Both the position numbers and the translations under genes were made by a program. Positions 2,107 through 59,783 of a stretch of DNA of 64,000 bases are shown here, in pieces; the first letter of the stretch is position 1, and every line of letters begins with the position of its first letter. The notes beneath the pieces are model-generated. The model saw only the letters and a program-made list of their open reading frames with translations. It was not told the origin of the DNA and made no database searches. This stretch comes from Desulfitobacterium dichloroeliminans LMG P-21439 (lineage in GTDB: Bacteria > Bacillota > Desulfitobacteriia > Desulfitobacteriales > Desulfitobacteriaceae): contig NC_019903.1 in assembly GCF_000243135.2 (NCBI RefSeq), positions 1,154,001 through 1,218,000 on the forward strand, given 5' to 3'.

Positions 2107-2137
2107 TAGTACAATATAGGTTCTAGTTGGCACAATA

Positions 2138-2182
2138 AAAACAGAGAGTAGTTTGATTTATTTGAAACTGCTCTCTGTTTTA
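2138..2182. terminator. Bidirectional terminator between convergent genes
   Basis: An A-rich/T-rich hairpin (AACAGAGAGTAGTTT paired with AAACTGCTCTCTGTT) sits between the ATPase gene and the convergent kinase gene. A-tract and T-tract flanks on both sides would let it work in both directions. Confidence 0.8.
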
Positions 2183-2183
2183 T

Positions 2184-3596
2184 TTATCCACCACTCTGTT
2201 TTAAGGTAAAACCAAACGTACTTCCTTCCCCTGGGGTGCTCTCTACCATGACTTTACCTCCGTGTAGGTCGATTATTTCCTTAACAATTGCTAAACCTAA
2301 GCCAGTTCCCCCCTCATTACGGGAGCGGGCCTTATCAACTCGATAAAAACGATCCCAAATGAAAGGAATGTCCTTCGAAGGGATACCCTGCCCAAAATCA
2401 GTAATCTCTACTAAGATATCATCATCATAAGGTATAGCTGAGATAAGGATTTCACCTCTATCAGAAGAGTATCGTATGGCATTATCTAAAAGATTATATA
2501 TCACCTGCTCTATTCTATCTTCGTCACCGTAGCAAAGAGGTAAGTCAGAGGTCAGATTTGTAGTGATTATAAGGTCTTTGGCAGCCGTTTGAAGCCTAAG
2601 ACTTTTCATCGCCCTATCGATAATAGAGCGTAATGGAAACTCGTCCATGTTAAATAGCGCTGTTTGTGAATCGAAACGTGAAATTTCTAATAAGTCATTA
2701 ACAAGGCGACTTAAACGATGAGTTTCTTTTTGAACGATTTGAAGGTAATTCTTCTCCTCTTGCTTATCTTTTCCTTTCCCTTGAAGGAGGGCATCAATAT
2801 AACCTTGGATAGAGGTTAGCGGGCTTCTCAGTTCATGGGAGACATTGGCAACAAAATTACGCCTCATACTGTCTAATTCTGATAATTGCTTAGACATGTG
2901 ATTTATAGATAAGGCTAGAACACCTAATTCGTCTTTAGAATGGATTTCAACTCTCTCATCAAATTTCCCATCAGCAATATTACGGGTTATCTCGCAAACT
3001 CTTTTAATTGGCTTTGTAATTTGTCGAGAGAAAATAATTCCTATAAAAACTGAAATGAGTATTCCAAGCAAAGCAGCACCAACATAGATTTTACTCATAT
3101 TTTTGGAAGTATCATTCACTCCCCTAACGGGTGAATATAAGATAACTCCGCCGATGAACTCATTATCGTGAATCACTGGAGTAACTACACGTATTACAGC
3201 TTCCTGGAAATATTCGGACTGTCCGCTTTTGATACTGGCTTTTCCGGATTGTAGTTGCGTGAGGTCCATCGCCTCTAGAGTGTTTCCCTCACAGTACAAG
3301 TGATCTGCTGATGCAGTAATGACTTTGCCATATCTGTCAATGACCCAAACTTCTGTACCTAAAATTCTATCGGCTCTATTTACATTAAGTATCACAGGCC
3401 GCGGATTTAGGTTGGACATTAAGTAAGGCATTACCATATTACTTAGCTCTTGGCCTCGAACAACCATTTCTTGTTCTTTGGATTTAATTAAATAGTTTTC
3501 CACTAGATACACTTGCATACTTCCAATAATCGTAATGGCTACGATCACAAGTCCTATATAGCTCGCTAATAGTTTGAAAAAAATACTTTTATTCAT
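2184..3596 (-). CDS. Sensor histidine kinase (HAMP-HisKA-HATPase)
   Basis: A 470-residue membrane sensor kinase. Two membrane segments (near residues 8-30 and 165-190) flank an extracytoplasmic sensor domain of about 130 residues. HAMP, HisKA (phospho-acceptor His near 254 in NVSHELRSP), and a HATPase domain with DNAIRYSS (N box), DFGQGIP (G1) and GGTGLGLAIV (G2) follow. The start chosen is the ATG inside the end of the regulator gene (8-nt overlap), because an upstream in-frame ATG would read far into the regulator. There is no PAS domain after HAMP, so it is not a textbook PhoR. The signal sensed cannot be told from sequence. Confidence 0.9.
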   Translation of the reverse strand: MNKSIFFKLLASYIGLVIVAITIIGSMQVYLVENYLIKSKEQEMVVRGQELSNMVMPYLMSNLNPRPVILNVNRADRILGTEVWVIDRYGKVITASADHLYCEGNTLEAMDLTQLQSGKASIKSGQSEYFQEAVIRVVTPVIHDNEFIGGVILYSPVRGVNDTSKNMSKIYVGAALLGILISVFIGIIFSRQITKPIKRVCEITRNIADGKFDERVEIHSKDELGVLALSINHMSKQLSELDSMRRNFVANVSHELRSPLTSIQGYIDALLQGKGKDKQEEKNYLQIVQKETHRLSRLVNDLLEISRFDSQTALFNMDEFPLRSIIDRAMKSLRLQTAAKDLIITTNLTSDLPLCYGDEDRIEQVIYNLLDNAIRYSSDRGEILISAIPYDDDILVEITDFGQGIPSKDIPFIWDRFYRVDKARSRNEGGTGLGLAIVKEIIDLHGGKVMVESTPGEGSTFGFTLKQSGG

Positions 3597-4284
3597 TTCG
3601 GGCGACCTCGAACTTATAGCCAAGTCCCCAGACAGTTTGTATGTATACGGGTGCTTCGGGAACGGATTCAAGCTTTCTTCTTAGGCGTTTAATAGTATTA
3701 TCAATGGTCCGGGTATCCCCCAAATAATCAAATCCCCAAACTTTTAGCATAATATTTTCTCGTTGCAGTACTATTCCTGGATTGCTGGCAAAAAACCAAA
3801 GCAGACTAAATTCTTTGGCAGTGAGCTCAAGAAGTTGGCCCAAGATTTCCACCTTAAAGGATTCTTTGTTAAGGATGAACCCTGGGTACTTTATGATTTG
3901 AAGCTCTTCAGAACTAGCTGAATTAAAACGGCGTAATACGGCTTTGGCTCTAGCCAAAAGTTCACCTGGATTAAATGGCTTTGTGACATAATCATCAGCG
4001 CCTAAGTCGAATCCGAGAATTTTATCGTGTGGGTCGTCTTTAGCAGTTAACATAATGACGGGCGTATCGGATAACATACGGATTTTTCGGCACAACTCCC
4101 AACCATTAAGACCAGGCAGCATAATATCGAGCACGATTAAATCGAATTTTTTCTCTACGAACACCGATAGGGCAGTGTGTCCATCATATACTTTTGTAAT
4201 ATGAAATTCGTCGCTTAAGTATAGACTAACTAGATTACAGATATGTTCTTCATCATCTACTATGAGGAGTTGTTTTTTGTCCAT
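3589..4284 (-). CDS. OmpR-family response regulator
   Basis: A 231-residue two-domain regulator. The receiver domain has the acidic pair D10-D11, phospho-acceptor D53 in LIVLDIMLPG, and the conserved Lys in TKPF. The C-terminal half is an OmpR/PhoB winged helix (RTIDNTIKRLRRKLE, WGLGYKFE). It is the first gene of a two-gene operon with the sensor kinase, whose start codon overlaps its stop. The divergent neighbour is ccm cluster 1, with 251 bp between start codons. It is one of two candidates in this window for the regulator that binds the 11-bp direct repeats found upstream of many genes here. Confidence 0.93.
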   Translation of the reverse strand: MDKKQLLIVDDEEHICNLVSLYLSDEFHITKVYDGHTALSVFVEKKFDLIVLDIMLPGLNGWELCRKIRMLSDTPVIMLTAKDDPHDKILGFDLGADDYVTKPFNPGELLARAKAVLRRFNSASSEELQIIKYPGFILNKESFKVEILGQLLELTAKEFSLLWFFASNPGIVLQRENIMLKVWGFDYLGDTRTIDNTIKRLRRKLESVPEAPVYIQTVWGLGYKFEVARNE

Positions 4285-56723: not shown

Positions 56724-56747
56724 TGCAACCACCGGGAGGTCGTGCCA

Positions 56748-57767
56748 GTGAATGATAAGGATATTAATATATTAGGGATAGAGACAAGCTGTGATGAGAC
56801 CTCAGCTGCGGTGCTCCAAAATGGTCGAGATCTGCTCAGCCATGTGATCTCGTCCCAAATTAAAACCCATCAGAAATATGGTGGAGTTGTACCGGAAGTT
56901 GCTTCTCGGGAACATATTCTCCATCTGCAAGGGGTAGTGGAGCAGGCTTTAGATGAGGCAAATATGGATTTTGCCGATTTGTCCGCAATTGCTGTGACCT
57001 ATGGGCCAGGGCTCGTGGGCTCTCTTTTAGTGGGGGTAGCTGGAGCGAAGGCCATGGCCTATGCTGCAGGGATACCTTTGTTGAGAATTAATCATTTAGA
57101 AGGTCATATCTATGCCAACTTCCTCCACAATCCGGAGCTAGAGTTCCCGTTGCTGGCTCTTCTCGTCTCTGGGGGTCATTCTCACTTGGTGTATTTCGAA
57201 GGGCATGGGAAGTATCAAGTCCTGGGGCATACACGGGATGATGCCGCTGGGGAAGCTTTAGATAAGGTGGCTCGGACCTTGGGACTGGGTTATCCGGGTG
57301 GTCCCTATATTCAAAAGGCTGCTTTAGAAGGGAATCCACATGCTTTTGAATTTCCAAGAGCTATGTTGGAACCCAGGAGTTTGGATTTTAGTTTTAGCGG
57401 GGTTAAGTCTGCGGTCCTTAACACCTTAAATTCGGCAAGAATGAAGGGAGAAACAGTCAAGGTCGAAGACGTAGCTGCTTCCTTTCAAGAAGCTATCGTC
57501 GATGTACTGGTGCGCAAAACCCTTTTGGCGTTAGATAAAACTAAGGCTCCGACGCTAGTCCTTGCAGGAGGAGTGGCTGCAAATTCTTTACTAAGGGAGC
57601 GGTTGACAGAGGAGAGCCAAAAACGCGGAATTGCATTTCATTATCCTCCACCGATTCTCTGCACGGATAATGGAGCGATGATCGCCACAGCTGGGTATTA
57701 TCGTTATTTGGCTAAGGATTACGCTCCTTGGGATTTAAATGCTATACCGGGATTGGCTCTTGTTTAG
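56748..57767 (+). CDS. tsaD: tRNA t6A transferase TsaD
   Basis: A 339-residue ASKHA protein that transfers the threonylcarbamoyl group to A37 of tRNA. Metal ligands in HLEGH (about 110-114), N-terminal GIETSCDETSAAVL, VSGGHSHLV and LAGGVAANSLLR are as in the family. GTG 56748 chosen since GGGAGG is 8 nt upstream; GTG 56742 is too close to it. Confidence 0.95.
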   Translation: MNDKDINILGIETSCDETSAAVLQNGRDLLSHVISSQIKTHQKYGGVVPEVASREHILHLQGVVEQALDEANMDFADLSAIAVTYGPGLVGSLLVGVAGAKAMAYAAGIPLLRINHLEGHIYANFLHNPELEFPLLALLVSGGHSHLVYFEGHGKYQVLGHTRDDAAGEALDKVARTLGLGYPGGPYIQKAALEGNPHAFEFPRAMLEPRSLDFSFSGVKSAVLNTLNSARMKGETVKVEDVAASFQEAIVDVLVRKTLLALDKTKAPTLVLAGGVAANSLLRERLTEESQKRGIAFHYPPPILCTDNGAMIATAGYYRYLAKDYAPWDLNAIPGLALV

Positions 57768-57776
57768 CAATAAATT

Positions 57777-57808
57777 GGAATGGATGTCTCAAAAATGACA
57801 TCCATTCC
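57777..57808 (+). terminator. Terminator after tsaD
   Basis: GGAATGGATGTC pairs perfectly with GACATCCATTCC. Confidence 0.85.
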
Positions 57809-57857
57809 TGTGCATTTCAAGGTATTTACAATCGGTAGATGAAGAAGGAAACACTAT

Positions 57858-58393
57858 ATGATTATCTTTGCACTTGCGATTTTTTTCTTTCGGGCTATTT
57901 ATTTAAAAGATATTTTTCCTATTCGGAGGACCAGGCAGGACAGGTCTTATCACGTATCGTGCTCTATATAACGCTTCCGGCAACCATATTTTATTCAGCA
58001 AGCGGAACTAAAGCAGTATCACAGTCGTTTTTGTTCCCTTTCGTTGCCATCTTAATCCAGTTAGCTATGTATGGGATTTTTCGGTCGCTAGCTCCGAGAT
58101 TCAAACTGGAAAAAGATACGGAATGCATCTTTGTCTCAACCCCTTTGAACAGCAATATTATGTTGTTTCTGAGTCTGTTTTTCTACCTTTCTTATGGCGA
58201 TCCGGGGTTAACGCGTCTCATTCTTTACGATATTGGTAATTCATTCACGATTTTTATGATTATGCAGCCACTTTATCGGTTTGCTAATCAGGGGAAGAAT
58301 AATTTCTTGGCCGGTATTAAAATGGTTTTCCGTTCCGTACCTATTTGGGCGTTTTTCCTCGGAATTACCTTTTCTTACTTTGGATTAGTCTAA
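57858..58393 (+). pseudogene. Truncated, frameshifted AEC-family (auxin efflux carrier-like) transporter
   Basis: From ATG 57858 (GAAGGA 9 nt upstream) the frame encodes MIIFALAIFF. The continuation expected for an AEC protein (LSGYLFKRYFSYS) is in the next frame, the change falling in a run of seven T (57880-57886). The second frame then runs to FFLGITFSYFGLV and stops, giving only about half of the usual 300 residues. A perfect terminator follows, so the loss of the second half is not recent. A sequencing error could explain the frameshift but not the truncation. Confidence 0.75.
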
Positions 58394-58447
58394 AATACCT
58401 TAAAAGCCCTTAAGAATCAGTGAATCTTAAGGGCTTTTAGGTATTTT
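58393..58447. terminator. Long hairpin terminator
   Basis: AAATACCTTAAAAGCCCTTA (58393 on) pairs with the complementary arm 58425-58446; A- and T-rich ends suit both directions. Confidence 0.85.
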
Positions 58448-58580
58448 CAGGATAAAAAATAATGGTTTTTTGAGTAGATAAACTTTAGTATAACAAGAAA
58501 AGGGAATTTAAAATAGGTTGAAGTAGTCATTACGTAATAGGCCATTCGGGAAGTAGACTCTTTGGGGGGATAATATGTTC

Positions 58581-58710
58581 TGTGGATAGTTGTTTTGTGG
58601 ATAATGTGGATAACTTTGTGAGTAACTGATATTAGCGGATTGAGGAGTTTCAAGGATTTGAGGATAAATTGGGGAACTTTACCCACAGGTCCTGTGGATA
58701 GTGTGGATAA
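58581..58710 (+). promoter_or_regulatory. Cluster of DnaA boxes
   Basis: Five TGTGGATAR 9-mers lie in 130 bp, all in one orientation. TGTGGATAG is at 58581 and 58693; perfect TGTGGATAA (complement of the TTATCCACA consensus) at 58596, 58605 and 58702. The boxes at 58596/58605 and at 58693/58702 abut without a gap. The rest of the 58448-58856 spacer shows no gene. Confidence 0.75.
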
Positions 58711-58856
58711 GTTGGGAAGCCGAGCAATTTAACGGGGATGAGGATGGGGATAACTTTCCAAGAGTGGTAATAGAACAAATACCTTTTCTTTTTCCTGCTG
58801 TTCGATATAAAATGAAAACGTGCGTTATTGAATTTTCATAAGAATGGAGAACAACT

Positions 58857-59783
58857 ATGTGGGTATTGTTTGCATGCCTTATCCTTGGAGCGGTGATGGG
58901 GTGGTTCCGCGCGTTGCCGAAAATCTTCCTTGATCAGGCGGGAAAAGGAATGATGTTTGGGGTTCTGATCCTTTTATTAACCATGGGTCTACGCATTGGT
59001 GTAGACAGAAATACCCTTTCCCAATTGGGGAACTTTGGGTTTCAGGCCTTTATCTTTGCAGTCGCTGCAATTCTAGGCAGTGTGGTGACAGTACAATTGC
59101 TTGAGAAGTTATTTATCGGGAAGTCTCCTCTGCTTCCCGAATACGATACTATGGAGGTTAGTGCTACAGAGACAGCTCATCCACACCGGATGACTGGTGC
59201 AATAATGGGGGCGTTTGCCCTAGGAATTCTATGGGGCATGACCTTTTTTCCCGAAACGTGGGCGAATACTTTACCTTTGATTACGGATCTTGCCCTTGAT
59301 TTTACCCTCGTCATGGTTGGGATTGATTTGGGAATGAATCGTGAGATTTGGAAACATATGATCAAAGTTGGTTGGCAGGTGTTCTTAGCACCCTTTGGTG
59401 TAGTGCTGGGGAGTATTATTGCGGCCATGGCGGTTGGCCTATGCTTCGGCTGGGATTTTCGAGAAGGTGGGGCAGTCGGAGCCGGGTTTGGGTGGTATAG
59501 TTTATCAGGAGTTCTGATTTCTGATCTCCATTCGGTTTCTTTGGGAACAATCGCATTTTTAAGCAATATTTTTAGAGAAGTCTTAGCAATTATTTTTGCT
59601 CCTTTTTTGGCAAAGAAGCTAGGTCCTCTCGCACTGGTAGCTCCCAGTGGTGCTACGGCAATGGATTCGACTTTACCTGTACTGGTTGCCGTCGGTCCGA
59701 AGGGGATTGGAATCGTGGCCATAATCAGCGGACTTTCTTTATCCCTTCTTGTTCCTGTCTTAGTTCCCCTAGTTTTAGGATAA
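58857..59783 (+). CDS. lysO: LysO-family (DUF340) membrane exporter
   Basis: A 308-residue protein with about eight to ten membrane segments. The conserved signature GAGFGWYSLSGVLI (about 208-221), REVLAIIFAPF and TAMDSTLP mark the LysO/YbjE lysine exporter family. Here the N-terminal DUF340 part and the C-terminal part are fused in one chain as in other long members. Substrate assignment (lysine) rests on the family. Confidence 0.87.
   Translation: MWVLFACLILGAVMGWFRALPKIFLDQAGKGMMFGVLILLLTMGLRIGVDRNTLSQLGNFGFQAFIFAVAAILGSVVTVQLLEKLFIGKSPLLPEYDTMEVSATETAHPHRMTGAIMGAFALGILWGMTFFPETWANTLPLITDLALDFTLVMVGIDLGMNREIWKHMIKVGWQVFLAPFGVVLGSIIAAMAVGLCFGWDFREGGAVGAGFGWYSLSGVLISDLHSVSLGTIAFLSNIFREVLAIIFAPFLAKKLGPLALVAPSGATAMDSTLPVLVAVGPKGIGIVAIISGLSLSLLVPVLVPLVLG

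Follow-up and report, generated by a model that had tools for sequence, protein, structure and literature searches.

Results

The window, a 64,000-nucleotide stretch of the Desulfitobacterium dichloroeliminans LMG P-21439 chromosome (genome 1,154,001-1,218,000), contains tsaD (gcp; 56742..57767, + strand; Pfam TsaD, 4.3e-99), a gene of tRNA t6A synthesis that is the last of a tsaE-tsaB-rimI-tsaD series. Downstream of tsaD, which ends at 57767, lies an array of DnaA boxes whose first box starts at 58581. A truncated permease-like open reading frame (57839..58393, + strand) separates the two; its Pfam Mem_trans match (E 1e-4) is under the curated cut-off, and it encodes 184 amino acids against a 343-position model. 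Between this remnant and the array is an A+T-rich imperfect palindrome (58392..58447, no strand assigned; CTTAAAAGCCCTTAAGA...TCTTAAGGGCTTTTAGG). The palindrome looks like a terminator, yet a terminator scan made no call there, and its miRNA matches were at chance level only. On the other side, 103 bp past the end of the array, an incidental neighbour begins: the lysine exporter gene lysO (58857..59783, + strand; Pfam Lys_export, 7.9e-63). A block upstream of lysO (58780-58824, TACCTTTTCTTTTTCCTGCTGTTCGATATAAAAT...) is conserved in the genus and is perhaps a lysO promoter or operator.

The array comprises eight boxes between 58581 and 58753 when inverted and one-mismatch boxes are counted. The left module consists of box L1 (58581..58589, + strand, TGTGGATAG) and an abutting pair, L2 (58596..58604, + strand, TGTGGATAA) and L3 (58605..58613, + strand, TGTGGATAA). 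A one-mismatch box follows (58659..58667, + strand, TGAGGATAA), at a position poorly kept in relatives. The right module holds a three-box core, in which an inverted box, core box I (58679..58687, - strand, TTACCCACA, reading TGTGGGTAA on that strand), stands 5 bp before a second abutting pair, core box II (58693..58701, + strand, TGTGGATAG) and core box III (58702..58710, + strand, TGTGGATAA). A further one-mismatch box (58745..58753, + strand, TGGGGATAA) lies 34 bp past the right pair, at a conserved position. With gaps in bp, > for boxes on the tsaD strand and < for the inverted box, the layout reads > 6 > 0 > 45 > 11 < 5 > 0 > 34 >. An earlier note on this DNA had counted five boxes, three TGTGGATAA and two TGTGGATAG at 58581, 58596, 58605, 58693 and 58702; these coordinates are exact, all five boxes lie on the + strand, and the two abutting pairs (58596/58605 and 58693/58702) are as it described. 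Absent from its count were one inverted and two degenerate boxes. Its description of the boxes as co-oriented thus holds for those five, but the array is not purely co-oriented, as a conserved inverted box belongs to the core. Both this box at 58679 and the box at 58745 are conserved in relatives.

Random clustering does not account for the array. TGTGGATAR matches the window eight times against 1.05 expected, and none of the shuffles contained as many as eight. By a Poisson estimate, a genome would hold about 4e-10 clusters of five boxes in 130 bp. The single contig of 3,624,449 bp that makes up the genome carries 69 copies of TGTGGATAA and 19 of TGTGGATAG, yet only this array and 606,904-607,057 have two TGTGGATAR no more than 30 bp apart, in both cases on the + strand. 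These two places are the outcome of the genome-wide cluster count that the earlier note had proposed. The second extra-origin cluster extends over genome positions 606,896-607,121 (+ strand; positions 3896-4121 of locus L022), flanked by argH and a gene for nicotinate phosphoribosyltransferase (pncB). Like the array, it has abutting and 3-bp-spaced co-oriented boxes on the + strand; unlike the array, it is not linked to tsaD and has no inverted-box core.

Among relatives, the array is attached to tsaD. In the class to which the source organism belongs (69 genomes, a phylogenetically uneven set with many Desulfosporosinus), the exact doublet TGTGGATAATGTGGATAA occurs as 78 copies in 54 genomes. 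Of the 78 copies, 45 (from 40 genomes) follow tsaD at a distance of at most 12 kb, without exception on the same strand as tsaD. Some copies on sequence pieces without tsaD adjoin genes for a 5-formyltetrahydrofolate cyclo-ligase and a NuoE-like protein (identified by eye from translated open reading frames). Because these genes also come after lysO in the window, such copies are probably the same locus. Insertions can separate tsaD from the array, namely the truncated permease frame in the source genome and about 9 kb in another genome (G002), while a close relative (G003) has no permease insertion and carries the array 150 bp past its tsaD match.

The right module keeps its dimensions in the class, with the inverted box 5 bp (37/45) or 6 bp (8/45) before the abutting pair and a further box, commonly TGGGGATAA, 33-35 bp after it. 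Within the core, spacer length is fixed and spacer sequence is variable. Column conservation inside the boxes is partly circular, because alignment rows were picked by box match; the informative measures are the spacer-length counts and the TGGGGATAA box, for which rows were not selected.

To follow the element beyond the class, we sampled 60 genomes across the phylum and 15 Bacillaceae-type genomes picked for SirA, a phylogenetically uneven set, and scored a cluster wherever the first 1 kb after tsaD held three or more boxes inside a span of 300 bp. Clusters were present in 50 of the 75 genomes and in 34 of 51 families outside the class, compared with 1 of 1500 mononucleotide-shuffled controls. 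Control windows 1.5-3.5 kb downstream of tsaD contained a cluster in 6 of 120 cases, most of which are probably explained by displaced arrays, as several genomes carry their array that far out. In the 75-genome sample, 249 boxes had the orientation of tsaD and 33 the opposite one. From one co-oriented box to the next, the favoured gaps were 0 bp (49 vs 6.1 expected), 3 bp (20 vs 7.9) and 33-36 bp (40 vs 8.0), each over the maximum of 1000 random placements. Abutting 9-mers, which the earlier note had called unusual, are in fact the commonest spacing of the element phylum-wide (49/194 gaps). An independent whole-genome count in the phylum placed 30 of 56 doublets at most 3.5 kb downstream of tsaD, all 30 on the same strand, with about 0.07 expected. 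Among the SirA-bearing Bacillaceae-type genomes, downstream sequence was usable in 15; of these, 14 carry the cluster, and the same 14 have an ABC-F gene that converges on tsaD, the arrangement of gcp-ydiF.

The complete core is distributed more narrowly. When 84,980 species were scanned for exact matches to TTAYCCACA, 5-6 bp, TGTGGATAR and TGTGGATAA, 55 places were returned. Twenty-five of these lie 32-3373 bp downstream of tsaD, every one on the tsaD strand; they come mostly from Desulfosporosinus and relatives, with one in Bacillaceae (Halalkalibacter). The core is almost confined to the class of the source organism (7 of 398 phylum genomes), which rules it out as a phylum-wide signature. 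Outside that class, the inverted box is mostly missing or differently spaced. The doublet and the spacing rules, unlike the core, hold phylum-wide.

The core also occurs away from tsaD. Two Desulfosporosinus loci (L168 1032-1064 and L197 1222-1254) carry an extra core, with the inverted box 6 bp from the abutting pair. Small CxxC zinc-ribbon-like genes lie close by, and this may be a second conserved cluster. In Coprothermobacter platensis (L186 1925-1957), the same core lies right before a dnaA-like open reading frame, so the layout can occur at an origin too.

We compared the genes that follow 112 arrays. They fall into 23 unrelated groups, including cyclo-ligase (37), convergent ABC-F (18), radical-SAM-like (11), lysO (9), Lgt-like (9) and others, with group names judged by eye except for lysO and cyclo-ligase. 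A search starting from lysO relatives showed these boxes ahead of lysO both within the genus and beyond it in other genera, with lysO in only 12 of 41 relatives. Given this variety of downstream genes, the array follows tsaD and not a target promoter, and lysO can be rejected as a general target. The earlier note had named lysO as the neighbour; yet arrays persist in genomes that lack lysO there, and lysO follows only 9 of the 112 arrays. We also considered an RNA element ahead of lysO, either a lysine riboswitch or another structured RNA, and rejected it on two results: there were no Rfam matches above gathering score in 57000-59500, and folding stability was ordinary (z-score 0.41).

The nearest known counterpart is a DnaA-binding region of Bacillus subtilis that lies downstream of both gcp (tsaD) and ydiF and counts among the six extra-origin DnaA-box clusters of that species. 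This region shows the fourth strongest DnaA binding in vitro, with 10 sites and a Kd of 0.15 uM (ATP) or 0.33 uM (ADP), has a 16-fold preference for ATP-DnaA at 55 nM, and belongs to the eight strongest regions, which alone were readily detected in vivo (PMC4447404). When six extra-origin clusters are removed from B. subtilis, initiation is early (PMC5295017; PMC13220808). Like the gcp/ydiF region, the array is an intergenic cluster of many consensus boxes, away from oriC and in the gap directly downstream of tsaD. The Bacillaceae-type genomes, with tsaD, boxes and a convergent ABC-F gene, bridge B. subtilis and the Desulfitobacterium-type cases. The present locus differs from gcp/ydiF in its co-directional downstream gene (lysO), in the interposed permease remnant and in its right module, whose inverted-box core is typical of Desulfitobacterium relatives. 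Judged on gene position and box content, the array appears to be the positional counterpart of the gcp/ydiF region; the sequence between boxes is not alignable at this distance. The proposal in the earlier note that this is an extra-origin cluster of the B. subtilis kind is backed by the boxes and by the tsaD position, and titration stays the leading candidate function. In B. subtilis, ywlC is the tsaC gene. Three extra-origin DnaA regions of B. subtilis adjoin tRNA-modification genes, perhaps by coincidence: gcp (tsaD), ywlC and trmE (PMC4447404).

Our search of the full-text literature turned up no paper that treats tsaD together with DnaA boxes; an earlier description of the wider conservation may nevertheless exist.

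Discussion

We propose, with somewhat better than even confidence, that this feature is a tsaD-linked extra-origin DnaA-box cluster of the Bacillota that sequesters DnaA and restrains initiation. The eight-box array is probably an old chromosome-replication control element rather than a regulator of lysO. By analogy with B. subtilis, we infer that DnaA binds the array in the source organism and that the array acts by sequestration. Following this logic, binding of DnaA to the abutting head-to-tail pairs would be cooperative, and some 6-8 protomers would form a compact ordered complex in the untranslated gap. The array would then hold DnaA, preferentially in the ATP form, away from oriC, leaving less free active DnaA and thereby restraining initiation.

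The lysO start 103 bp past the array, the genus-conserved block at 58780-58824 and the known role of DnaA as a transcription factor are the points that would fit DnaA-dependent transcriptional control of the downstream gene, here lysO. We regard such control as improbable, since the downstream gene varies by lineage (23 groups in 112 arrays, 9 of them lysO) and since in the 18 genomes with a convergent ABC-F neighbour the array faces no promoter. Dense consensus DnaA boxes also recall oriC, yet a second replication origin has next to no likelihood and was rejected. dnaA (genome 508-1857) and dnaN (2123-3226) are some 1.21 Mb off, confirming the remark of the earlier note that no origin gene is nearby; these genes lie with their box clusters at genome 1-3 kb, where oriC-type boxes flank dnaA at 259-2012. 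GC skew remains positive from one side of the array to the other. A site that uses DnaA to organise the chromosome or to segregate sisters, leaving initiation unaffected, would draw on the ordered spacing and the strand fixed relative to tsaD; on that basis it is a speculative reading, to which we give very little weight.

A different kind of control is suggested by the DARS elements of Escherichia coli. In the MG1655 sequence, the cores of DARS1 and DARS2 consist of an inverted box, 5 bp, a direct box, 3 bp and a second direct box, and, according to a review, both loci have box I turned against II and III at the same spacing (PMC5742627). The array shares the three-box core, the inverted box I and the 5-bp gap between I and II, a notable agreement. 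It differs in the gap between II and III (0 bp here vs 3 bp), in having all boxes near consensus and in its gene context. Because of the II-III mismatch, we do not file the site as a DARS. Resemblance to datA and the chromosomal titration regions of E. coli is of a more general kind, as these too are intergenic clusters, remote from oriC, to which much DnaA binds (PMC12371093). datA itself depends on IHF, and its layout and position are unlike those of the array.

A DARS-like activity would mean that the core assembles DnaA in such a way that the bound nucleotide is released or exchanged, promoting initiation; we include here the mirror case of datA-like hydrolysis. The core orientation, the I-II spacing and the conservation of core spacer length without that of spacer sequence are consistent with this reading. 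Its weaknesses are the II-III spacing, an inverted box that is mostly missing or otherwise spaced outside the class, and the net negative effect of the B. subtilis clusters on initiation; in addition, one spacing in common among about 10 possibilities is weak evidence of likeness. We consider a DARS-like activity unlikely. We hold a broader idea in similar doubt: that the Bacillota possess, in the tsaD-linked array, an ancient DnaA-remodelling element acting in cis, comparable in function to DARS or datA and with a spacing code of its own.

Two features nevertheless bear on how sequestration might work. A site for simple titration would have no need of fixed distances between boxes; their conservation here hints at an ordered complex whose task is more specific than that of a loose sink. 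The array also sits 1.21 Mb into the 3.62 Mb genome. With oriC placed at coordinate 1 and the terminus assumed to be opposite, this is roughly two thirds of the way along the arm, so that the array would be duplicated late and would make a poor titration timer. Together, the conserved spacing and the late replication keep a nucleotide-remodelling role in play beside the sequestration that we favour.

Extra-origin clusters of B. subtilis have so far been treated mainly as DnaA-binding sinks. Our survey shows that one such cluster is kept beside tsaD, on one strand, in most sampled Bacillota families. The linkage to tsaD, the single strand and the preferred spacings of 0, 3 and 33-36 bp imply selection on an ordered DnaA complex, and these spacings provide a testable layout. 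According to a 2026 review, B. subtilis lacks datA, DARS1 and DARS2, and whether it has any regulators of the DnaA-ATP/ADP balance is not known (PMC13220808). A conserved element with a partly DARS-like core makes the question of such a regulator directly testable and, if the remodelling idea were true, the element would be the missing regulator of the DnaA-ATP/ADP balance in a phylum without a known one.
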